IMG/VR virus record: IMGVR_UViG_3300018083_000086
Span: 1-33,365 of that record
Origin: a virus
Length of the DNA: 33,365 nucleotides
Strand: one strand, 5' to 3'
Shown: in pieces, positions 1 through 7,666 of the stretch
Layout of the letters: each line of letters begins with the position of its first letter
How positions within the stretch are numbered: position 1 is the stretch's first letter
Notes under the pieces: model-generated
Database searches by the model: none
What the model saw: only the letters and a program-made list of their open reading frames with translations
Told to the model about the DNA's origin: nothing
Made by a program: the position numbers and the translations under genes

Positions 1-430
1 CCACCACCGCCTTTTCCAAAACCCAATCCAGCGTGCGCGGCCGTTCGTCATAGGCATCGGGCGTGGACGACTGGAGAAAGCATTGCGTGGTCGCGAAATG
101 CTCGAAACTATCGAGGCTGCCGACCCACAATTTCTGGAGTTTGTCGCGCAAATAGGCTTCGTTTTCCGGCACATACATGAATGACCGGATGCCCTGCTCG
201 CGCGCTATTTTGGTCAAGACATTGAGCAAAAACGTCGACTTGCCGTGGCCCGCAATGCCGGTGCAAACCACAAATTGGCCTGCGTAAAACTTGAAAATCT
301 GGTCCAATTCCCACCAGCCCGTGCTGATGGCTTGCTTCTCGATCGACCCCCTTTGCGGTAATTCAGCGAGCGAATAATAGCCCGGCTGGTCGTGACGATA
401 GAGACCGGGCAACGGGACCACATTGGCCAT
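1..430 (-). CDS. DnaB/Twinkle-like replicative helicase, 3' part cut off by window edge
   Basis: The first 143 residues are visible and the gene runs off the left edge. A short lead-in is followed by STGWWELD and then a Walker A P-loop, GIAGHGKST, at about residues 58-66. After it comes a strand and turn (FMYVPENEA) like the Walker-A-to-H1a segment of RecA-fold helicases. The primase or N-terminal DnaB domain is absent, so this is a RecA-core-only, Twinkle-like helicase, which is common in phages. The ATG overlaps the stop of the upstream initiator gene by one base (TGATG), so the two are translationally coupled, as initiator and helicase genes usually are. The expected role is ATP-driven unwinding at the phage replication fork. 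The family is well supported; the Walker B motif and the rest cannot be seen. Confidence 0.85.
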   Translation of the reverse strand, partial: MANVVPLPGLYRHDQPGYYSLAELPQRGSIEKQAISTGWWELDQIFKFYAGQFVVCTGIAGHGKSTFLLNVLTKIAREQGIRSFMYVPENEAYLRDKLQKLWVGSLDSFEHFATTQCFLQSSTPDAYDERPRTLDWVLEKAVV

Positions 431-1068
431 CAAACTACTCCCTCAATGGGACCATTCCAGCGGAAGGCCGGATCGGTCTTGGCTTTGTCTTTTGCGGCTT
501 TGACTTCGCGGTTGCGCTTGGCGAGCGCGCCAGAAACGGCGGGGAACCAGCGATTACCTTGTTGTTCAGCCCATGCTGTTAGGCCGATTAATTCAGCCTT
601 GAGGTCGAGCTGAGAGAAAGCGGCTTGCCAATTATTGAAGTGCTTTTCGGTCAGCCGAATGATGCCGCTCTCGAAAGCGTAATCTTTGGTCGTTGCCACC
701 CCGTCAGGGGTATTCTTCTCTTCTCTTTCTCTCTCTCTTCTCTTCTCTGGGCTAGCATCTTGCTTGCAGGGTGCTAGCAAGTTGCTAGCAGAGATAAAAA
801 ACTCATGTTCAATCAGTGGCTTGAGAGCATCAATTAAATCGGACTCCGCCATTCTTAGTCGGAAGGCTATTTCCTCCGTCGTCGCCGTTATTTTTCCTTC
901 GTCGTATTCGCTTGCTAGCAGCCACAGCATCGGTGCTAGCGCCCTGCTAGCAACCGGCAAGCGGTGAAAATCAAAATTGTCGAGCAGATTGCGATGTAGT
1001 TTTATCCAAATAGGCGAGCGGTTTTTGTAGTGCTGAAATTCAGTCCAGTTTTTTGGTTCGAGGCTCAT
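430..1068 (-). CDS. Phage replication initiator / replisome organizer (lambda O-like role)
   Basis: 212 residues. The ATG at 1068 was chosen because it overlaps the preceding stop as ATGA and has an SD-like GGGGGAGGAC about 5 bases upstream; an in-frame ATG at 1095 would lie inside the upstream gene without such a site. The N-terminal 90 residues look like a winged-helix domain of the kind found in phage replisome organizers (PIWIKLHRNLLDNFDFHRL, then ITATTEEIAFRLRM as a probable recognition region). A highly charged linker (RREREREE) follows, then an alpha-helical C-terminus that could contact the helicase. The gene carries GCTAGC iterons and a polypurine tract, the same internal-origin arrangement as lambda O. 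The role rests on position, domain feel and iterons; no sequence search was possible. Confidence 0.7.
   Translation of the reverse strand: MSLEPKNWTEFQHYKNRSPIWIKLHRNLLDNFDFHRLPVASRALAPMLWLLASEYDEGKITATTEEIAFRLRMAESDLIDALKPLIEHEFFISASNLLAPCKQDASPEKRREREREEKNTPDGVATTKDYAFESGIIRLTEKHFNNWQAAFSQLDLKAELIGLTAWAEQQGNRWFPAVSGALAKRNREVKAAKDKAKTDPAFRWNGPIEGVV
749..792. repeat. Iteron array 1: four 11-bp units
   Basis: Exact GCTAGC occurs at 751, 773 and 784, and a one-mismatch copy, GCTTGC, at 762, so four units follow one another at exactly 11 bp. The fuller consensus is (T/G)TGCTAGCA(A/G). Eleven is not a multiple of three, so the periodicity is a property of the DNA and not of a protein repeat. One unit per helical turn suits cooperative binding by the encoded initiator. 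Confidence 0.8.
912..954. repeat. Iteron array 2: three GCTAGC units in the same phasing
   Basis: GCTAGC occurs at 914, 935 and 946, spaced 21 and 11 bp, nearly repeating the 22 and 11 bp spacing of the exact copies in the first array. A degraded unit could lie at about 923-932. Together with array 1 the window has six exact copies of this hexamer within about 200 bp. Confidence 0.75.
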
Positions 1069-1469
1069 GTCGTCCTCCCCCTTAAAAGCTGCCATTGCTC
1101 CAAAGCTTTAATTGCCTGGTCTATCCCCTCGGCCACGCACGTAAATCCGCCCGCCGCCTCGATGTCGGCGATGAACTCCAACTGCGCCACGGTCGGACGG
1201 CCGCCGGGGGCTTTCAGTTCAAGTGCGTAGAGTTTTGAGTTGTGGAAAATCAGCACGTCGGACACGCCGGCCCGCACGCCGTTCTTTTTCGCTATCGCGC
1301 CGGCGATCGAGGCCCCGCGGCGGTTGCGCTTGCCGCCCAGAAACCCGCCGTTATTTGTGTGCCAGTACACCGCCCCCGGCACCGCGCGGAAGCGGAGATG
1401 GTCGAAAACGGCCTGTTGAACAGTCTGCTCAGGACGAAGCACGGCGGCGCTTCCTCCTTCCCTTTGCAT
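1065..1469 (-). CDS. VRR-NUC domain nuclease
   Basis: 134 residues from ATG 1469, or 125 from an in-frame GTG at 1442, which has the better ribosome site (GGAGG about 10 bases upstream). The sequence shows a classic VRR-NUC pattern: RPEQTVQQAVFDHLR at the start, then NNGGFLGGKRNRRG, GVRAGVSDVLIF with the metal-binding Asp, LYALELKAPGG with the catalytic E-x-K, and an aligned AQLEFI helix. VRR-NUC is a PD-(D/E)XK fold used by structure-specific nucleases, often resolving phage replication or recombination intermediates. It overlaps the end of the HNH gene in another frame and its stop overlaps the initiator start (ATGA). The domain is confident; the substrate is unknown. Confidence 0.85.
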   Translation of the reverse strand: MQREGGSAAVLRPEQTVQQAVFDHLRFRAVPGAVYWHTNNGGFLGGKRNRRGASIAGAIAKKNGVRAGVSDVLIFHNSKLYALELKAPGGRPTVAQLEFIADIEAAGGFTCVAEGIDQAIKALEQWQLLRGRTT

Positions 1470-1755
1470 CCATGTCCCGCATGTTGTCGGACTGGGTGCC
1501 GAAGAAGAGATGGTCGACGTTGACGCAATACGGATTGTCGCAGGTATGAAGCGCCCACTTTCCAAGTGGGACCGGCCTGCCTGCTAATTCAAGAGCGATA
1601 TGCGTGGCTTGGCGAAGCGAGCGGCCTATTTTGAGTTTTCCATAACCGCGGGGACGGCAACACCCCAGCCATAAAAGGCACCCGCTGTTTGGCTCAGGAA
1701 TTGTCAACCGCTCAAATCGGATTCGAATATCTGTATTTTTGTTAGTTCTCTGCAT
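1429..1755 (-). CDS. HNH endonuclease, phage type
   Basis: 108 residues. The features are those of small phage HNH proteins: GCLLWLG and GYGKLKIG strands, an ATHIALELAG helix, then the core HTCDNPYCVNVDHLFFGTQ with the catalytic His and zinc-type Cys pair, and NMRDMDAKGRR at the end. Such proteins are metal-dependent nickases or homing endonucleases, and some act in packaging. This one sits in the early operon two bases after the preceding stop with no strong SD, so it probably relies on coupling. Its 3' end covers the start of the VRR-NUC gene. A free-standing homing nuclease is most likely. Confidence 0.85.
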   Translation of the reverse strand: MQRTNKNTDIRIRFERLTIPEPNSGCLLWLGCCRPRGYGKLKIGRSLRQATHIALELAGRPVPLGKWALHTCDNPYCVNVDHLFFGTQSDNMRDMDAKGRRKRRRASS

Positions 1756-1757
1756 GG

Positions 1758-1877
1758 CTAAATCATCTTCGCGATCATCATGCCGAGCGCTGTGATGCTG
1801 GCGATCGAGAGTGCCAAGACCACGACCAGGATCAGGAAGGCCGATCGGTAGGTGTCGAGGCTGTTGAAGCCGCTCAT
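1758..1877 (-). CDS. 39-residue single-pass membrane protein, unknown function
   Basis: A small gene whose ATG overlaps the previous stop as ATGA. It begins with about 12 polar residues (SGFNSLDTYRS) and continues as one hydrophobic helix rich in Leu, Val and Ile (residues 13-36), ending in a lysine. Coupling on the 5' side and the clean TM segment argue that it is real. Its place among early genes makes a lysis role less likely. Possibilities include superinfection exclusion or membrane anchoring of replication, but nothing in the sequence decides. Confidence 0.6.
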   Translation of the reverse strand: MSGFNSLDTYRSAFLILVVVLALSIASITALGMMIAKMI

Positions 1878-2077
1878 GGCTCGTTGCTCCCGGCCTCGGC
1901 CTTCCTCAGGAGTTTCACCATGGCGAGCTCGGCGCTGTCGGCTAGTTCCTGCCAGAGCTTGGCCTCGGCCCGCGTCAGCATCTGGCCAAGGTCGTCGGCA
2001 TCGCCAAAACTCGCGCGCCGCAGTTTCTCGGCCTGCGCCCGCGCCGCCTTGATGAGTTCCGCGATCGAGGTTTTCAT
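1874..2077 (-). CDS. Small helical protein, unknown function
   Basis: 67 residues, predominantly alpha-helical with many Ala, Glu, Leu and Arg (AELIKAARAQAEKLRRA, then LTRAEAKLWQELADSAELAMVKLLRKAEAG). No signal or membrane segment is present. It is coupled on both sides by four-base overlaps (ATGA) with the coiled-coil gene upstream and the small membrane protein downstream, so it is part of the early minus-strand operon. The family is not recognised. The helical pattern would suit a small dimeric partner protein, but this is only a description. Confidence 0.65.
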   Translation of the reverse strand: MKTSIAELIKAARAQAEKLRRASFGDADDLGQMLTRAEAKLWQELADSAELAMVKLLRKAEAGSNEP

Positions 2078-2469
2078 GGCCCATCCACCACGTCGCCTAG
2101 ATGCGGGTCGGCCGCCTGCGGAGACACCCCAATGTGCCGCAGCAAGCCGTAGATCGCCTCCAGGTGTCCGCCGATGGCGACGAGGCTCGTTTCACGTGCA
2201 ACACGCTCGGCCACCGCCTGGTCGCGCTCCAGCACGCAGGACGCCGTTCGGCTCTCCAGCGTGGCGATGTGGCTGCGCAGCGTTTCGTTCTCGGCCTCGA
2301 CTTGGCGGATGATGACCTTGGCGTTGGCGAGTTCGCGGTAAGCCGTGTCCAGTTCGTGCTCGCGCATCTGCTGGTGTTCCATCGACACCCGCATCGCGTC
2401 GAGCCGGAACGTCGGGAGCGGCAGCATCGGTGCCGGCGGCAGGGTGCCGTTGGTCTGGTCGTCGCTCAT
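2074..2469 (-). CDS. Coiled-coil protein, unknown function
   Basis: 131 residues. A Pro-rich N-terminus (LPPAPMLPLPTFRLD) is followed by a long coiled coil from about residue 28 to 90 (HELDTAYRELANAKVIIRQV, then ENETLRSHIATLESR) and a short Gly- and His-containing tail. GGAG lies about 9 bases before the ATG, and the stop overlaps the next gene by ATGA. The composition is that of a small cytoplasmic oligomer. No enzymatic motif is present and I do not recognise a family. Confidence 0.65.
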   Translation of the reverse strand: MSDDQTNGTLPPAPMLPLPTFRLDAMRVSMEHQQMREHELDTAYRELANAKVIIRQVEAENETLRSHIATLESRTASCVLERDQAVAERVARETSLVAIGGHLEAIYGLLRHIGVSPQAADPHLGDVVDGP

Positions 2470-2481
2470 TGGGGGTGTCTC

Positions 2482-2718
2482 CTATTGTTCGAAGTTGGAT
2501 TTCAGTCCGCTGTCGATCGACGGCGCCGACACTCGCCGCGGTAGTTTGGTCCCGGCCGGATGGCTCTCCGTGGCGCGCTCCGGATGCTCGCGGGCCAAGG
2601 CCTCCAACATCGCCTCGCCCGACCGCTCCCGTTCCGCCTGCTCGCTCGGGTCGAGCGCCACCGCCTCGCCCGGCACGGGCTTGAATTGCCGCTGCCTGCT
2701 CGGGATGCCGCCCCTCAC
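2482..2718 (-). CDS. 78-residue protein, unknown function, GTG start
   Basis: The gene starts at a GTG that overlaps the GcrA stop (GTGA), with GAGG about 10 bases upstream inside the GcrA coding sequence. The product is hydrophilic and basic, with a central Glu/Ala-rich helix (EQAERERSGEAMLEALAREH) and no membrane or cysteine motif. A longer reading in this frame begins at 3087 but is antiphase to GcrA and has the unnatural Arg/His/Pro composition of a shadow frame, so the GTG start was preferred. Function unknown. Confidence 0.55.
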   Translation of the reverse strand: MRGGIPSRQRQFKPVPGEAVALDPSEQAERERSGEAMLEALAREHPERATESHPAGTKLPRRVSAPSIDSGLKSNFEQ

Positions 2719-3143
2719 GAGTGGTGCGCCTCTTTGTGGTGGTCCGGGCAGTAGCTCGATCCCGTCCGCGCCGTTGCCCCGCAGTAGTGGTAGGGCGGCT
2801 CGCCGGTCGGCCACCGGCAGTGGTGGTCGAGCAGGTCCATGATGGTGAGGGTGCCAATCGGCAGTGGCTCGGGTGCAGGCAGCGGTGGTGCGGGCGGAAT
2901 GCGAGTGTCCATGGGTCTGACCTCCCTCGGCAGTGGACGACGCTTGCGTAGTGGCGGTGGTGGGCTGGTCGGCTTGGTGCGGCGCGGCGGGCAGGTGTAG
3001 CCCTGGCGGTGGCAGAGCCCGATGATGGAGTTGCGGCTCACGCCGAACACGGCGCCGATCTGGCTCGCCGTGTAGCCCTGCGCCCACAACTCGGCCACGC
3101 GGGCCTTGGCTTCAGCGGTCCAGATTGCGGTCTGCCACGGCAT
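2715..3143 (-). CDS. GcrA-family transcription regulator
   Basis: 142 residues with both ends of the GcrA family. The N-terminus is the helix-turn-helix (WTAEAKARVAELW, then YTASQIGAVFGVSRNSIIGLCHRQGY, residues 8-49). The C-terminus is the signature CRWPTGEP with CGA and YCPDHH (Cys109, Cys121, Cys132). A variable Pro/Arg-rich linker joins them. In Caulobacter, GcrA binds sigma70-RNA polymerase and activates promoters carrying CcrM-methylated GANTC (established knowledge). Here a phage early gene encodes it, suggesting that phage or host promoters are tied to the host's methylation and cell-cycle state (inference). The gene has GAGG 7 bases before the ATG and feeds into the next gene by a GTGA overlap. 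Confidence 0.9.
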   Translation of the reverse strand: MPWQTAIWTAEAKARVAELWAQGYTASQIGAVFGVSRNSIIGLCHRQGYTCPPRRTKPTSPPPPLRKRRPLPREVRPMDTRIPPAPPLPAPEPLPIGTLTIMDLLDHHCRWPTGEPPYHYCGATARTGSSYCPDHHKEAHHS

Positions 3144-3155
3144 GGCTAGGCCTCA

Positions 3156-3518
3156 TCATCGGCCAACCACGGGGCGATCGTTACGGCCAAGGTCGCGCAC
3201 CGCCTCCCGAGTTTGATCAATTGTCGGGCGATGAAAGTCCGGGTCCGTCTGAATGAGTAAGGCTTCAAGGCGGAGGAGCCGCGTTCGGAGGTCGTGAAGT
3301 TCATTGCGCGCGTGTTCCTCGGATTTGCGCCGTAGCGCGGCTTCAATGCGGTTGATTTCCGCGAGTTCGATCCGACGGGCTTTGCCGTACCAAATGTCGA
3401 AGGCGCGCCAGTAAGTGAGGTCAGCGGCCCGCGCCGCCCGCGCGATGGCCGCCTTGATCTTGTCGCCACGTTCCCACGGCTCCGAGAGTTCACGCAGGGA
3501 GGCAGAAATGTCCGTCAT
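3156..3518 (-). CDS. Early phage protein with helical, possibly DNA-binding region
   Basis: 120 residues from the ATG at 3518, which has GGGAG 7 bases upstream; an earlier in-frame start at 3590 would read through the palindromes discussed separately. The N-terminal half (RGDKIKAAIARAARAADLTYWRAFDIWYGKARRI) resembles conserved small proteins of rhizobial prophages and could be a helix-turn-helix. The second half is a coiled coil (NRIEAALRRKSEEHARNELHDL) and the tail is basic. It is the first gene after the Cro-like regulator and precedes GcrA, a place where an early regulator would be expected. Function is not established. Confidence 0.65.
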   Translation of the reverse strand: MTDISASLRELSEPWERGDKIKAAIARAARAADLTYWRAFDIWYGKARRIELAEINRIEAALRRKSEEHARNELHDLRTRLLRLEALLIQTDPDFHRPTIDQTREAVRDLGRNDRPVVGR

Positions 3519-3552
3519 TTGGGTCTCCCAAGACTTTTGGGAGAACTCCCAA
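3519..3552 (-). promoter_or_regulatory. Mutually exclusive hairpins covering the SD of the 3518 gene
   Basis: Reading the minus strand, four alternating half-sites (TTGGGAG, TCTCCCAA, TTGGGAGA, CCCAA) lie directly before the ATG. The middle one can pair upstream (TTGGGA-GTTC-TCCCAA) or downstream (TCTCCCAA with TTGGGAGA, 5-nt loop). The second pairing hides the SD GGGAG; the first frees it. In DNA the same palindromes could be an operator. Arms on the plus strand: 3524-3531, 3537-3544 and 3546-3552. Confidence 0.55.
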
Positions 3553-3597
3553 CATTTCGCTGCGATGGTTTGCGCATGAGTAGTCCTCACCCCGCGC

Positions 3598-3810
3598 TTA
3601 TGACGCTACAGTTTCGGATCGAATGAATGTCCGAACAGCGACGTCCCCGCCCGTGGCATCGCTCAGTCGCTGAGCCAGCGGTAGAGATACGCCGCGCTCA
3701 CCTTTCAAGATCAGCGACAGATGGCTTTCTGAACATCGAACGGCGCGCGCGAATTTGGCCTGTGTCGTGTTTGCTTCGATCCAGTCGGCGAGCGGATGCT
3801 TTTCAGTCAT
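3598..3810 (-). CDS. Cro/YdaS-like HTH repressor
   Basis: 70 residues from the ATG at 3810. The helix-turn-helix is in the first 50 residues: ADWIEANTTQAKFARAVRC, then SESHLSLILKGERGVSLPLAQRLSDATGG, matching small Cro or YdaS-type regulators (helix 2 about TQAKFARAVR, recognition helix about SESHLSLILK). A longer frame reaches 3846 but would start inside the operator region. It is the first gene of the leftward early operon and divergent from the CI-like gene, the classic Cro position. Its expected role is repression at the CTTTGC-N5-GCAAAG operators and the switch to lytic growth (inference from context). Confidence 0.8.
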   Translation of the reverse strand: MTEKHPLADWIEANTTQAKFARAVRCSESHLSLILKGERGVSLPLAQRLSDATGGDVAVRTFIRSETVAS

Positions 3811-3873
3811 CCAATAACTTTGCCACCAGCAAAGCCTTAATGTCAAGGCGAACTTTGCTGACAGGAAATCGAC
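3811..3873. promoter_or_regulatory. Immunity-region operator pair O1/O2 with leftward promoter
   Basis: O1 (3818-3834) is a perfect CTTTGC-N5-GCAAAG palindrome. O2 (3853-3869) has one perfect arm, CTTTGC, and a degraded arm, GGAAAT. Their centres are 35 bp apart. On the minus strand TTGACA (3846-3841) lies between them as a -35 box, and O1 covers the place where the -10 should be (17-bp spacing), so binding would block the leftward promoter. O2 also covers the SD of the CI-like gene on the plus strand. No good -10 hexamer is visible. Confidence 0.75.
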
Positions 3874-4206
3874 ATGAGCGGGTTGACGACGGAAAATCCC
3901 CTCATGAAGCCTAGCCCGTCAATTCTCGAACCAAAGCTTTATATTGGTGAATGGATCGAAGCTCTTGGCCTACAGGCGCGAGCGGTTGCTAAAGATGCTG
4001 GCGTTAGCGAGCCATATTTGAACCAACTTATACATAGAACCAAAGACAACCCTAGCTTGAAAGTTCTAGTTAAGATTGCAAGTGCTATGAGGATGGGGGC
4101 CAGGGACTTACAAAGCCCACCTCCTCCTCGTGCTGTACTTGAGGAATTAAAGAAAATCCCTTCCGATCAGCTTGAGCGACTAAGGCGTCGACAGTCCGCC
4201 CATTGA
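3874..4206 (+). CDS. CI-like XRE-family repressor
   Basis: 110 residues, ATG with AGGA about 8 bases upstream. An XRE-type HTH occupies about residues 24-82 (YIGEWIEALGLQARAVAKDAG, VSEPYLNQLIH, then SLKVLVKIASAMRMGARDL). A short C-terminal helix follows (VLEELKKIPSDQLERLRRR). There is no S24/LexA autocleavage domain, so induction cannot be by RecA-stimulated self-cleavage and some other signal or an antirepressor would be needed. It is divergent from the Cro-like gene, and a second operator pair lies between it and the rightward operon. Its likely role is lysogeny maintenance by repressing both flanking promoters. Confidence 0.8.
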   Translation: MSGLTTENPLMKPSPSILEPKLYIGEWIEALGLQARAVAKDAGVSEPYLNQLIHRTKDNPSLKVLVKIASAMRMGARDLQSPPPPRAVLEELKKIPSDQLERLRRRQSAH

Positions 4207-4255
4207 GCGCTGATTCTTCCACTAAAACCTTTGGTTGAGCCCTCAAAAGAAAATA

Positions 4256-4308
4256 CTTTGCTGAGCGCAAAGATTATTCTTGACGTTAAACTTTGCTGAA
4301 GGCAAAGT
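4256..4308 (+). promoter_or_regulatory. Operator pair O3/O4 with rightward promoter
   Basis: O3 (4256-4272) and O4 (4291-4307) are both perfect CTTTGC-N5-GCAAAG palindromes, centres again 35 bp apart. TTGACG (4280-4285) lies between them, five bases before O4. A 17-bp spacer puts the -10 on the right arm of O4. The order operator, -35, TTAA, operator is the same as at the leftward promoter in mirror orientation. Transcription would run into the operon starting at 4340. The -10 is a weak match, so activation or a non-canonical sigma interaction is possible. Confidence 0.75.
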
Positions 4309-4339
4309 ACTCCCCGTCAATCGGGAGCACGCCATCACC

Positions 4340-4939
4340 ATGGAACTGGTTCGCTACAACGCCATGTGCCGCGCGATCGCGGAAGCACACCGGGTCGACG
4401 AGGCGAAAGAAATTCATGACCAGGCAGTGGCGCTCGAAGCCTATGCGCGCCAAGCCTTAAACACCGATGCCGAGCGCGAGGCGACTGAAATTCGCCTGCG
4501 CGCGGAGCGCAAGGTGGGAAAGCTTCTCAGGGCCTCACCCAAAGCAACGGGGACATTGAAGCAAGGCCCCAATCTCCCGCGGTCGACCAGCACGACCACG
4601 GGAACACTCAAATCTCTGGGCATCACCAAAGACCAGTCATCGCGATGGCAGAAAATCGCTGACCTGTCGGACCATGAATTCGACTTGGCGATTGGCACCG
4701 CAACCTCAAAGCCATCGACCAACGGCATCCTGAAGGCGACCGCTCCACCGGAGAGGATGGTGGTTTCAAAAGATGCGCTCTGGCTTTGGGGGCGCTTACG
4801 CGATTTCGGCGGCGATGAGTGGCTGGCTAAGTCGCCTACCGACGTGATGTCGACCATGACACCCGAAATGAAAGACGACGTTCATCAACTCGCGCCGCGC
4901 TTTGCAGCATGGCTTAAGCGAATAGGAGAGATGCCATGA
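4340..4939 (+). CDS. First gene of rightward operon, helical phage protein of unknown function
   Basis: 199 residues from ATG 4340. A frame upstream begins at TTG 4280, but that TTG is the -35 box, so it is rejected. The N-terminal 90 residues are helical and charged (AKEIHDQAVALEAYARQALN, then EREATEIRLRAERKVGKLLR), a pattern seen in many phage and mobile-element proteins without a defined function. A Thr/Ser/Pro-rich linker and repeated GTLK/GILK motifs follow, then a C-terminal globular part with Trp-rich LWLWGRLRDFGGDEWL. The linker plus helical modules suggest a DNA-associated adaptor, but I cannot name it. The stop overlaps the next start (ATGA). Confidence 0.65.
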   Translation: MELVRYNAMCRAIAEAHRVDEAKEIHDQAVALEAYARQALNTDAEREATEIRLRAERKVGKLLRASPKATGTLKQGPNLPRSTSTTTGTLKSLGITKDQSSRWQKIADLSDHEFDLAIGTATSKPSTNGILKATAPPERMVVSKDALWLWGRLRDFGGDEWLAKSPTDVMSTMTPEMKDDVHQLAPRFAAWLKRIGEMP

Positions 4940-5379
4940 CCCACGAAGAAAGTCAGTTAGCGGATATTGTCGCGCGCATCATTGATGTTCGCCGCGTGCA
5001 ACCGAGGATTAATCCGTCATGGATAGCGACGGAAGCCCTTAAGGAGCTCGACCCGTCCGAAAGCTCGCACCCGCTGGTCCGGGCTGGATGTCATTTACAA
5101 TTACGCCAGATTGCGCGAGCGCAATGCCGCAAACTTTTCGACGATGACAGCGAAGACGATAGCTCGCCCCGCTTTACTGGCTTTAGTGGGCTGCAATGGC
5201 GATACCCGGCCGTTCATTCGAAAAACAATCCTGAGCCTGAGTATGTGCTTCTCGAACAGATGAGCCGGGCCGATATCGACTACAACGTCAATCGCCTTAC
5301 CCTTGAAGGCCACGCAAAACTAAAACACGCCGACGCACTTGAGGCGTGGGGCCTCTCGCGCAAGGCTGCCGTGGGATGA
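4936..5379 (+). CDS. Conserved-looking phage protein, unknown function
   Basis: 147 residues, coupled to both neighbours by ATGA overlaps. Residues 1-70 are helical (ESQLADIVARIIDVRRVQ, then NPSWIATEALKELD, and HLQLRQIARAQCRKLF). An acidic patch (DDDSEDDS) and an aromatic stretch (FSGLQWRYPAVHS) follow, then a helical C-terminus rich in His and Leu. Similar proteins occur next to recombination genes in alphaproteobacterial phages, but I do not know a biochemical role. No membrane segment or metal motif is visible. Confidence 0.6.
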   Translation: MTHEESQLADIVARIIDVRRVQPRINPSWIATEALKELDPSESSHPLVRAGCHLQLRQIARAQCRKLFDDDSEDDSSPRFTGFSGLQWRYPAVHSKNNPEPEYVLLEQMSRADIDYNVNRLTLEGHAKLKHADALEAWGLSRKAAVG

Positions 5380-5642
5380 CGGACCCCATCCGCAACCTCG
5401 TCGACCACCTGGCGAACCGCGCCGTGCTGTTCGAGGTCGACCCCGACCCCAGGCAGCCCAACCGCGTGCTCTACAAGATCACCGCCGCTAGCCGCGATGC
5501 GGTGCAAGACGCCATCTCAGAGATCATGAACCGCGTCGACGACACCAGCGGTTATGCGGTGTTCGCCGGGCCGCGCCGCAGCGGCGACGGGTTCATGGCG
5601 CAGGGTGCCGTTGTGATCTACGGCGCGGGGCGCGCGTCGTGA
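5376..5642 (+). CDS. 88-residue phage protein, unknown function
   Basis: Start at ATG 5376, overlapping the preceding stop as ATGA; an upstream in-frame ATG at 5346 would lie well inside the previous gene. The protein looks like a small alpha/beta domain: a helix (RNLVDHLANR), strand AVLFEV, strand RVLYKITA, helix DAVQDAISEIMNRVD, then strands GYAVFAG and GAVVIYG. It is soluble, without cysteines. Function unknown; it belongs to the coupled cassette leading to the exonuclease and RecT genes. Confidence 0.65.
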   Translation: MTDPIRNLVDHLANRAVLFEVDPDPRQPNRVLYKITAASRDAVQDAISEIMNRVDDTSGYAVFAGPRRSGDGFMAQGAVVIYGAGRAS

Positions 5643-5818
5643 CCTTCACCGACACCGAGAAACGAGAAGCCGCAGAGCGGGAAGCGAAGATGCGCCGCAA
5701 AGTCTATCCGCGCTGGGTGGAGCAAAAGAAAATGTCACTCGCACAGGCTGACAAGCAAATCGCGCTGATGGACGAGATCGCGGACGACTACCGCAAGAAA
5801 GAGTTGGTGCTCCTGTGA
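5639..5818 (+). CDS. 59-residue helical protein, GTG start
   Basis: This short gene begins with GTG overlapping the previous stop (GTGA) and ends TGATG with the next gene. The product is highly charged and helical (EKREAAEREAKMRRKVYPRW, then LAQADKQIALMDEIADDYRK). Perfect packing between neighbours, with no gap on either side, supports it being translated. Small acidic-basic helical proteins at this place in phage recombination operons are common and mostly uncharacterised. Confidence 0.7.
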   Translation: MTFTDTEKREAAEREAKMRRKVYPRWVEQKKMSLAQADKQIALMDEIADDYRKKELVLL

Positions 5819-5976
5819 TGATGCTCACCGACGACCAAGTTGAGAGTGCGATTGCCGCCTGCGACGCGATCATTGCCGCCATGGCGCGGATCGAACGGAT
5901 CGCGACCCAGGTGGAGCGCGATCTAGCCGACTGGAAGCGTGAGCTTGAGGTGATCAGCGAGCAGAGGAAAGCGTAA
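5818..5976 (+). CDS. 52-residue coiled-coil protein
   Basis: It begins at the ATG sharing one base with the previous stop (TGATG) and ends TAATG with the exonuclease gene. Almost the whole length is an amphipathic helix (VESAIAACDAIIAAMARIER, then QVERDLADWKRELEVISEQR), likely a coiled coil. Tight coupling directly to a YqaJ-type nuclease suggests a helper or modulator of the recombination pair, but this is inference from position only. Confidence 0.7.
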   Translation: MMLTDDQVESAIAACDAIIAAMARIERIATQVERDLADWKRELEVISEQRKA

Positions 5977-6770
5977 TGCTGTCGCCGGAACAGATCGCGG
6001 CGAGGAAGGGCAAGCTCACGGCGTCTCGTGTGGCATGTCTGATGCGCGGCGACACCGCCAAGATCATGCAATTGTATATGGAGATGACGGACGACCCGAG
6101 TTTCGTCGCTGAAAATTTGGAGGAGGTCTGGCCGGTTAGGCTCGGCGAAGTTACTGAACATCTCCAAACCATGTGGTTTGACCTCAAGCACGGTCCGACA
6201 TCGAGGCACGGCGAAGTTGTTGTACATGCCAACGGCTGGGCCGCCTGCACGCTAGATGCTTGGTCTGATCTGCACAACTGCGTCATTGAATGCAAACATT
6301 GCGGGGGACACGAACCGTTCGAGACATTGGTCGAGCGGTATCAACCGCAAATGCACTGGCAGATGATCGTGACCGGCACGAAACAGTGTGCGCTGTCAAT
6401 CATTCAGGGTGCGCGCGAGCCGATCGTGGACTTCGTCGACTACGATGAGGACTACGGTGCCGAGTTGATGCGGCGCGGGCAGGCATTCATGGAGTGCGTG
6501 TGGAGCAAAACGCCGCCGATCGACATCGGCGAGCCGGTGGCCGCGCCCGTGCCCGGCAAGGTCTACGAAATGTCTAGTTCAAACGCTTGGGCAGCGTCGG
6601 CGTTCTTATGGCGCGAGAACATCGCCGGCAAGAAGCTTGCCGAGATGGCCGAGAAAGAACTCAAGGCGCTGATGCCGCCTGACGGCAAGAAAGCATTCGG
6701 TCATTCGGTAGTCATCACGCGCGATCGTGCGGGTCGGCTATCACTTCGCGAAGAGGCAGAAGCAACATGA
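5976..6770 (+). CDS. YqaJ-type viral recombinase exonuclease
   Basis: 264 residues. The motifs of the lambda-exonuclease/YqaJ PD-(D/E)XK family are in order: KLTASRVACLMRG near residue 13, RLGEVTE with Glu58, TLDAW with the metal-binding Asp94, IECKH with the E-x-K pair Glu105/Lys107, and YQPQMHWQM at residue 122, the family's conserved Gln-containing helix. Such enzymes degrade the 5' strand of linear duplex DNA, leaving 3' single strands for the annealase encoded next. The gene's stop overlaps the recT start by ATGA. The C-terminal 60 residues are a variable helical and strand tail. Confidence 0.9.
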   Translation: MLSPEQIAARKGKLTASRVACLMRGDTAKIMQLYMEMTDDPSFVAENLEEVWPVRLGEVTEHLQTMWFDLKHGPTSRHGEVVVHANGWAACTLDAWSDLHNCVIECKHCGGHEPFETLVERYQPQMHWQMIVTGTKQCALSIIQGAREPIVDFVDYDEDYGAELMRRGQAFMECVWSKTPPIDIGEPVAAPVPGKVYEMSSSNAWAASAFLWRENIAGKKLAEMAEKELKALMPPDGKKAFGHSVVITRDRAGRLSLREEAEAT

Positions 6771-7666
6771 ACGAGATTGCAAAGATTGAACACGGGATGG
6801 CTGTCTCACTTGAGCCAACCAATATGCCAGAAGCCATGGCGCTGGCCAATCTTATGGCGGGCGCCAAGCTGGTTCCCACGGCTTTACAAAAGTCGCCAGC
6901 GGATTGTCTGATGGTGATTATGCAAGCCAAGCGGTGGAATTTAGACCCATTTGCCGTTGCGCAGGAATGCAGCGTCATCCAAGGCAAGTTGATGCACAGC
7001 GGCAAGCTCGTCGCCGCCGTCATCAACTCGCGCGGCGGTCTCACACAGCGGCTGTCATTCGAATACGATGGCGAGGGCGACAAGCGGACCATCACGGTCA
7101 GCGGCCAGCTCCGCGGCGAGCCAGAGCCGCGCACAGTGAACGTGACGCTGAAAGAAGCCCGCACGCCAAACAAAGTCTGGCAGACCCAGCCCGACCAACA
7201 GTTGATGTATCACGGCAGTCGCGTTTGGGCGCGACGGCACACGCCGGAGCTCATGCTCGGCGTTTGGTCGCCGGAGGAGTTCGACGATGGGCCAGCCAAG
7301 GAACGGCGAGCACCGACGCCTGCGCCACTAAAGATGGCCAAACTCGCCGAGGTCGCGCCCGACCCGGAGACGGGCGAGAACACAGATGACAATTCAGTAG
7401 TTCGGGAAGCCGACGCAGCCCCCCTGGTCGCTCCCGATGACTCCTCCGCACCGACTGGTAGGGAATACGGTGCGGAGGAGACCACTACCGACCGCATGGA
7501 GCGGCTCGATAAGCAGTTGAGTGTCGCCGCCACCAAGGGCACGGCCGCGCTCAAGGGGGCGTGGGATAAGATCGACAAAGACGACCAGGCCATCCTCAGA
7601 GCCGCCCTCGACAACCGCCACAGACCCACAGCAGCAAAAGTGGACAAGGCCGGGGCGACACCATGA
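6767..7666 (+). CDS. recT: RecT-family single-strand annealing protein
   Basis: 299 residues. The RecT core spans about residues 15-190, with family-typical segments: PEAMALANLMAGAKLVP, CLMVIMQAKRWNLDPFAVAQ, a conserved KLVAAVINSRG stretch, and WQTQPDQQLMYHGSRVWARRHTPELMLGVWSPEE near the end. A Pro- and acid-rich tail follows (residues 195-245), then a helical C-terminus. It is coupled to the YqaJ gene by ATGA; together they form a Red-like or RecET-like recombination pair. It would coat and anneal the 3' tails made by the nuclease, giving phage DNA repair and mosaic exchange. The stop overlaps the next start. Confidence 0.92.
   Translation: MNEIAKIEHGMAVSLEPTNMPEAMALANLMAGAKLVPTALQKSPADCLMVIMQAKRWNLDPFAVAQECSVIQGKLMHSGKLVAAVINSRGGLTQRLSFEYDGEGDKRTITVSGQLRGEPEPRTVNVTLKEARTPNKVWQTQPDQQLMYHGSRVWARRHTPELMLGVWSPEEFDDGPAKERRAPTPAPLKMAKLAEVAPDPETGENTDDNSVVREADAAPLVAPDDSSAPTGREYGAEETTTDRMERLDKQLSVAATKGTAALKGAWDKIDKDDQAILRAALDNRHRPTAAKVDKAGATP

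Follow-up and report, generated by a model that had tools for sequence, protein, structure and literature searches.

The window, a stretch of 33,365 bases making up one IMG/VR phage record and probably a fragment of a phage genome, carries near its first end a minus-strand gene for a putative replication initiator (Table 1); contig L005 is identical in sequence to window positions 1-6095. The start of this gene at 1068 is the family start codon, 117 nt ahead of the first iteron (the mechanical ORF extends to 1095), and agrees with the length of 212 residues given in the original prediction. Residues 1-131 match the profile of PHROG 26426, 'replication protein', over the N-terminal domain (E 2e-44), as do all 52 aligned relatives; a match to PHROG 186, 'DnaD-like helicase loader', is weak. 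The downstream gene matches PHROG 239 (primase/helicase, 1.6e-8) and PHROG 19 (DnaB-like, 3.5e-5), and a DnaB- or DnaC-like gene likewise adjoins the initiator gene in the phages PhiPLPE and Cr-LKS3; VRR-NUC-like and HNH-like genes lie upstream. Further along, the plus strand carries genes for RecE/YqaJ and RecT (5976-7666) and a phage integrase family gene (PF00589, 7913-8854), because of which the phage is probably temperate, with its own recombination system.

Table 1. Features of the initiator gene and its surroundings, in window coordinates (nt, position within the gene).
Feature	Position	Strand	Remarks
Downstream gene, P-loop, DnaB-like / primase-helicase family	2..433	-	PHROG matches; cut by contig end
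Initiator gene, 212 aa	430..1068	-	ORF, PHROG 26426, family start codon, AF2 model
Purine tract with AGAG repeats, encodes EKRREREREEK	713..748	-	candidate opening or strand-capture site
Array 2 site 4, GCTAGC	751..756		relatives often GCTATC
Array 2 site 3, GCTTGC (coding strand GCAAGC)	762..767		recurrent variant copy
Array 2 site 2, GCTAGC	773..778
Array 2 site 1, GCTAGC	784..789
Relatively AT-rich stretch beside array 2	790..850		alternative candidate opening site
Codons of predicted recognition helix, residues 75-87	807..846	-	AF2 model
Array 1 site 4, GCTAGC, nt 149	914..919		exact in 45/80 relatives
Array 1 phased position 3, nt 138	925..930		vacant in window
Array 1 site 2, GCTAGC, nt 128	935..940		exact in 38/80 relatives; otherwise often GATAGC
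Array 1 site 1, GCTAGC, nt 117	946..951		same position in 73/80 protein-found relatives

The gene contains six exact copies of GCTAGC and one near-copy, GCTTGC, in two helically phased clusters, at the positions originally predicted. In gene coordinates, the copies of array 1 start at nt 117, 128 and 149, and those of array 2 at nt 279, 290 and 312, with GCAAGC at 301 and the purine tract next. Only three copies lie outside the gene (at 5487, 7885 and 31791), so that the motif reaches a density of 9.4 per kb within it versus 0.09 per kb in the rest of the window; the total of 9 (5.8 expected) is not unusual, but the clustering is. The complete genomes of relatives with GCTAGC show the same concentration in two of three cases, with 5 of 5 copies inside the gene in PhiPLPE and 6 of 10 in Cr-LKS3; in phiV208 it is 3 of 16, still denser than in the rest of that genome. 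The phasing is kept in relatives down to about 40% identity in the N-terminal domain. Neither of the two outcomes that the original prediction named as refuting it, GCTAGC being equally frequent elsewhere or phasing being lost in close relatives, was observed.

With the protein kept and its codons redrawn from the phage's own usage, the initiator gene yields 0-4 copies of GCTAGC in 20,000 trials, versus the 6 observed; with the proteins likewise kept, across 49 dereplicated genes of the family the mean is 21 and the maximum 36, versus 198 observed, and the expectation at the individual sites 117, 128 and 149 is 2.7, 0.9 and 2.7 matches, versus 44, 32 and 30. For the sister set, in which the repeat is GATATC, resampling gives a mean of 14.8 and a maximum of 24, versus 66 observed. 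The distances between copies bunch at 10-11, 20-22 and 30-33, with a best period of about 10.3-10.5, and the copies occupy two codon phases. This excess, the helical distances and the two phases together argue that the DNA itself is conserved, which bears out the earlier claim of selection at this level.

The arrangement recurs widely. At least 120 IMG/VR contigs contain the exact pattern GCTAGC-N5-GCTAGC-N15-GCTAGC. A control pattern whose first two copies stand one base further apart gives 3 contigs, one of which (L218) is itself an initiator homolog. Among the contigs read in detail (84 found by the pattern, L005, and two phages), the array lies in frame 0 of an ORF in all except L096, most often 117 nt past the start codon; a second array is usual, 159-191 nt beyond the first copy, and 85 of the 86 encoded proteins resemble that of the window, leaving out one protein with an open start. 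Bacterial and archaeal genomes totaling 257 Gb yield 21 matches to the pattern, 8 of them within initiator homologs that are likely prophages: two each in Bradyrhizobium and Zavarzinella, and one each in Limnoglobus, Micavibrio, a Phycisphaerae and a Nanopelagicales assembly. A tblastn search of bacterial genomes with the window protein as single query found no close relatives, and a search of plasmids for the N-terminal domain gave no match.

Selection by the repeat is avoided when relatives are collected from a viral collection by protein profile. In the best 80 of at least 594 relatives found in this way, the GCTAGC copy at nt 117 is present in 73, that at nt 128 in 38 and that at nt 149 in 45, with array 2 at about 276-302. 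A second set chosen by protein, headed by Xanthomonas phage PBR31, lacks array 1 and carries GATATC at nt 264, 275 and 286 (in 54, 78 and 56 of 80); the two types are practically exclusive of each other. In a third set, with an L006-like sequence at its head, 66 of the 70 dereplicated genes are of the GCTAGC type; further phased positions are occupied at 87, 107 and 138, the last of which, vacant in the window, is filled by GCTTGC or GCTAGC. The degenerate copies have a pattern of their own: site 4 of array 1 reads GCTTGC in 12 of 49 dereplicated relatives, and of 48 genes, 31 have GCAAGC or GCTTGC at the third place of array 2, 9 have GCTATC there, and 12 have GATAGC one place earlier. The near-copy at 762 is thus present as predicted, but it is not a decayed copy, since GCTTGC recurs across the family. 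GCTATC and GATAGC, which occur in the GCTAGC group, combine one half from each of the two iteron types, and from their sequence such hybrids are a possible route between the two specificities.

Next to array 2, the plus strand carries a run of 36 pyrimidines at 713-748, that is, purines on the coding strand. Across the family, the tract past array 2 is strongly depleted in coding-strand T (3-8%, versus roughly 20-25%) and built from AGAGNN units (AGAGAC, AGAGAG, AGAGAA, AGAGGC), with an AT content of about 51-57%. It is read mostly as (TE)n, as RDRD in L150 and as RQRQ in L170, with frame changes inside; as AGAG is kept across several reading frames, it is therefore the DNA pattern, not one peptide, that is conserved. 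Of the polypurine mirror repeat originally described, the purine run is confirmed and the mirror symmetry is not supported: a mirror repeat, or triplex DNA, as the conserved property is rejected, since relatives have AGAGAC units with C. The relatively AT-rich spacer described between the clusters is found as such: between the arrays, GC content is lowest at 760-849 (40-43%, in a window of 60% GC), and the family average immediately ahead of array 2 is 60-63% AT.

An AF2 model of the window protein, built with the 52 relatives, predicts an N-terminal winged helix, a disordered linker and a C-terminal helical domain. Confidence is high for residues 31-90 (block pLDDT 94-97), with helices at 39-54, 64-70 and 75-87 and a short strand at 91-93; a low-confidence stretch at about 101-140 precedes the C-terminal domain. 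On this model, array 1 lies within the codons of the first helix of the winged helix (residues 39-54), while array 2 and the tract encode the linker (residues about 94-130, pLDDT mostly below 60 from residue 101). The model of the sister type with GATATC is poor (pLDDT 64). The best structural neighbors of the N-terminal domain are 4pql, 4pt7, 5kbj and 4pta (Z 6.7-7.5 over 80 residues; next 5.7), whose PDB titles name a Rep, initiator or DNA-binding N-domain and which we take to be staphylococcal RepA_N initiators; as Z is below the safe level of 8, this likeness is only a lead. Foldseek by itself gives no match at E below 0.3, and a PDB search with the sequence profile nothing meaningful. Pfam has no match to the window protein, including RepA_N, O and any replication-initiator family; for RepA_N (PF06970) specifically there is none at E up to 5, nor for the 52 relatives at 0.01. 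PHROG 678, 'replication initiation O-like', is matched by 14 of the 52.

These observations make it very probable that the segment is a phage replication origin inside its own initiator gene, of the kind represented by the lambda origin and pSK41 Rep. The original prediction of an iteron-type origin is in this sense supported as a reading of the sequence, from which we infer a working origin. The N-terminal winged helix would most likely bind cores of 6-8 bp (TGCTAGCA-like), which share one face of the helix and form two arrays separated by about 125 bp; array 2, which adjoins the tract, and array 1 would be filled cooperatively, wrapping or looping the DNA; the resulting strain would open either the purine tract, which lacks T, or the AT-rich stretch that flanks array 2; and the C-terminal domain would then recruit the DnaB-type helicase that the adjoining gene encodes. 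Binding, wrapping, opening and helicase loading are proposed here by analogy with lambda O, SPP1 gene 38 and pSK41 Rep. The tract lacks the AT-richness of a classic unwinding element, which speaks against the origin reading, as do a structural Z below 8 and the lack of a Pfam replication-initiator match for the window protein. GC skew lends it modest backing, confounded by gene orientation: the detrended minimum falls within about 0.6 kb of the site in Cr-LKS3, 1.5 kb in PhiPLPE (taken as circular) and 2.3 kb in phiV208, and misses it in ctEw122, so that three of four complete relatives have the skew inflection, originally proposed as a check, in the vicinity of the site; in phiV208 and Cr-LKS3 the minimum is also close to the point where transcription diverges. 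Our literature search on GCTAGC iterons, the phiPLPE origin and surveys of embedded phage origins found neither a description of an origin in this family, though one may exist, nor an experiment on the family.

Iteron initiators often autoregulate, and the fold of the winged helix is also like that of MarR-, ArsR- and CRP-type regulators, albeit at a low score; the arrays could thus be operators for repression of the operon by its own initiator or by a different regulator, with replication beginning elsewhere. We consider this improbable, as both arrays lie in coding sequence, at least 117 nt past the start codon and not at a promoter, as the conserved strand-asymmetric tract beside array 2 would be left without a role, and as the family goes by the name 'replication protein' and has a gene for a helicase or loader as its neighbor.

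The N-terminal domains of the family are joined to many C-terminal domains (39 PHROGs among the 52 relatives). In all six pairs compared, identity breaks off sharply at about nt 300-400. The pairs L148/L155, L180/L182 and L204/L211 have about 70-95% DNA identity (in 50-nt blocks) over the stretch between the start codon and nt 350, falling to background past nt 400; for the first two, identity is at background upstream of the start codon as well. Conversely, L200, L209 and L215, of the GCTAGC type, have the C-terminal half from about nt 350 in common with L283 and L256, of the GATATC type, while their N-terminal halves align at background to moderate levels. Judged from these alignments, the piece of about 350 bp from the start codon to the tract appears to behave as a movable unit between otherwise unrelated phages. 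A precedent is plasmid pPR9, a natural chimera in which N-terminal domain and origin were exchanged as one piece with phage-like sequence (PMC5703833). More tentatively, and with slightly more doubt than confidence, the family may constitute a system, widespread among phages, in which origin cassettes of about 350 bp are exchanged as units. Each cassette would comprise a winged helix, its own iterons and an AGAG opening tract that is not AT-rich, would move onto different helicase-recruiting C-terminal domains, and would alter its specificity by switching iteron half-sites (GCTAGC to GATATC), giving mutually compatible replicons.

The same breakpoints, together with the RecE and RecT homologs of the window phage, speak for a reading in which the repeats and the purine tract serve mainly as a recombination joint for swapping N- and C-terminal halves. 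This is less probable still than an operator function: a joint would need neither helically spaced iterons nor two separate arrays, nor would it need array 1 within the N-terminal domain, and the type of iteron tracks that domain, not the joint. Pure protein constraint, by which conserved peptides (ASxALAPxLWLLAS, DASxxLA) and repetitive linkers would yield DNA repeats by chance, can be dismissed almost entirely: conservation of the array 1 peptides, and the in-frame reading of GCT AGC as Ala-Ser, speak for it, but resampling already contradicts it (0.9-2.7 matches per site versus 30-44), CTA is a minor Leu codon, the copies are helically spaced in two reading phases, LIAS is retained with mixed codons in the sister subfamily, and the array 2 peptide varies while the DNA repeats stay.

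Origins inside initiator genes are a known kind, exemplified by lambda O, SPP1 gene 38 and pSK41 rep (PMC7466680, PMC6316719, PMC5703833). The lambda origin shares with the window its location within the initiator gene, iterons beside a stretch with purines on one strand, and an adjoining gene for helicase recruitment (PMC7466680, PMC5043065); the window has the lambda-type trait of a repeat array in the initiator gene beyond coding expectation. The iterons of lambda, four in number (six in some relatives), are inverted repeats to which O dimers bind, in the middle of O (PMC7466680, PMC5043065), whereas the cores in the family of the window are 6-8 bp long, one helical turn apart and in two arrays, the first of them in winged-helix codons. 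The parallel originally drawn to gene O therefore holds for a probable origin within the initiator gene and fails for the placement of array 1, in the codons of the DNA-binding domain; the view that the two-array layout is distinct from lambda is upheld. The element beside the lambda iterons is AT-rich and likewise strand-asymmetric (PMC5043065), unlike the family tract with its AT content of about 51-57%, and the window protein has no homology to O at the Pfam level.

pSK41 Rep, a RepA_N protein, is similar in having an N-terminal winged helix and an origin central in rep, the origin DNA encoding a linker that is dispensable as protein, and a DnaD-like C-terminal domain; it differs in its four Rep boxes in one central array, as against two, and in its occurrence on staphylococcal plasmids (PMC5703833). 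The window gene has the RepA_N trait of central repeats encoding a linker, but its protein lacks the Pfam match. SPP1 oriL in gene 38, compared by description, also has direct repeats within the gene of the origin-binding protein, and a separate loader and DnaB-type helicase; unlike the window, it has an AT-rich unwinding element, and SPP1 a second origin, oriR, elsewhere (PMC6316719). In the iteron plasmids RK2, P1 and F, repeats are also phased with the DNA helix (PMC5043065), but they lie outside the rep gene and accompany AT-rich unwinding elements (PMC5043065 and general knowledge).

New relative to these systems are the two arrays, one of them in winged-helix codons, the AGAG tract that is not AT-rich, the two iteron types per scaffold and the exchange of cassettes. 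A conserved candidate opening tract without AT-richness challenges the usual picture of unwinding elements, and since one protein scaffold naturally occurs with two iteron types, the way in which initiators recognize DNA can be tested directly, as can the evolution of this recognition by way of hybrid half-sites. The origins of uncultured phage genomes are rarely known, and the regular layout of iterons within a gene provides a sequence rule for probable origins in many of them.

A scan for CGTAGC/GCTACG as a general third iteron type matched 13 contigs, mostly unrelated coding repeats, and this type was rejected; the only family members among them belong to the L368 lineage (two contigs), L407 encoding an unrelated replication-type protein. 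Some relatives of the initiator that lack GCTAGC carry an HNH endonuclease domain (PF01844) as an insertion within the linker, at nt 270-600 in L368 (also in L367, L409 and L413) and at nt 285-630 in L388. Ahead of the purine tract, L368 has copies of CGTAGC/GCTACG at steps of 10-11-10-21, and L388 has GTTGCTAC repeats; by their sequence these are perhaps a third iteron type. In L407, at about 5060-5150, GCTAC/GTAGC repeats stand about 10-11 bp apart in the middle of the gene for its different phage replication-type protein, and the layout of iterons within a gene may be wider than the initiator family of the window. Two database records are also touched: in phage ctEw122 (L011, MW202640.1, 8.9-9.9 kb) the ORF of the initiator with GATATC iterons is unannotated, in a gap between 'homing endonuclease' and 'replicative helicase', and Limnohabitans phage DC33 (L012, PQ492659.1), at 39 kb, is recorded under Inoviridae, a misfit with both its size and its initiator.
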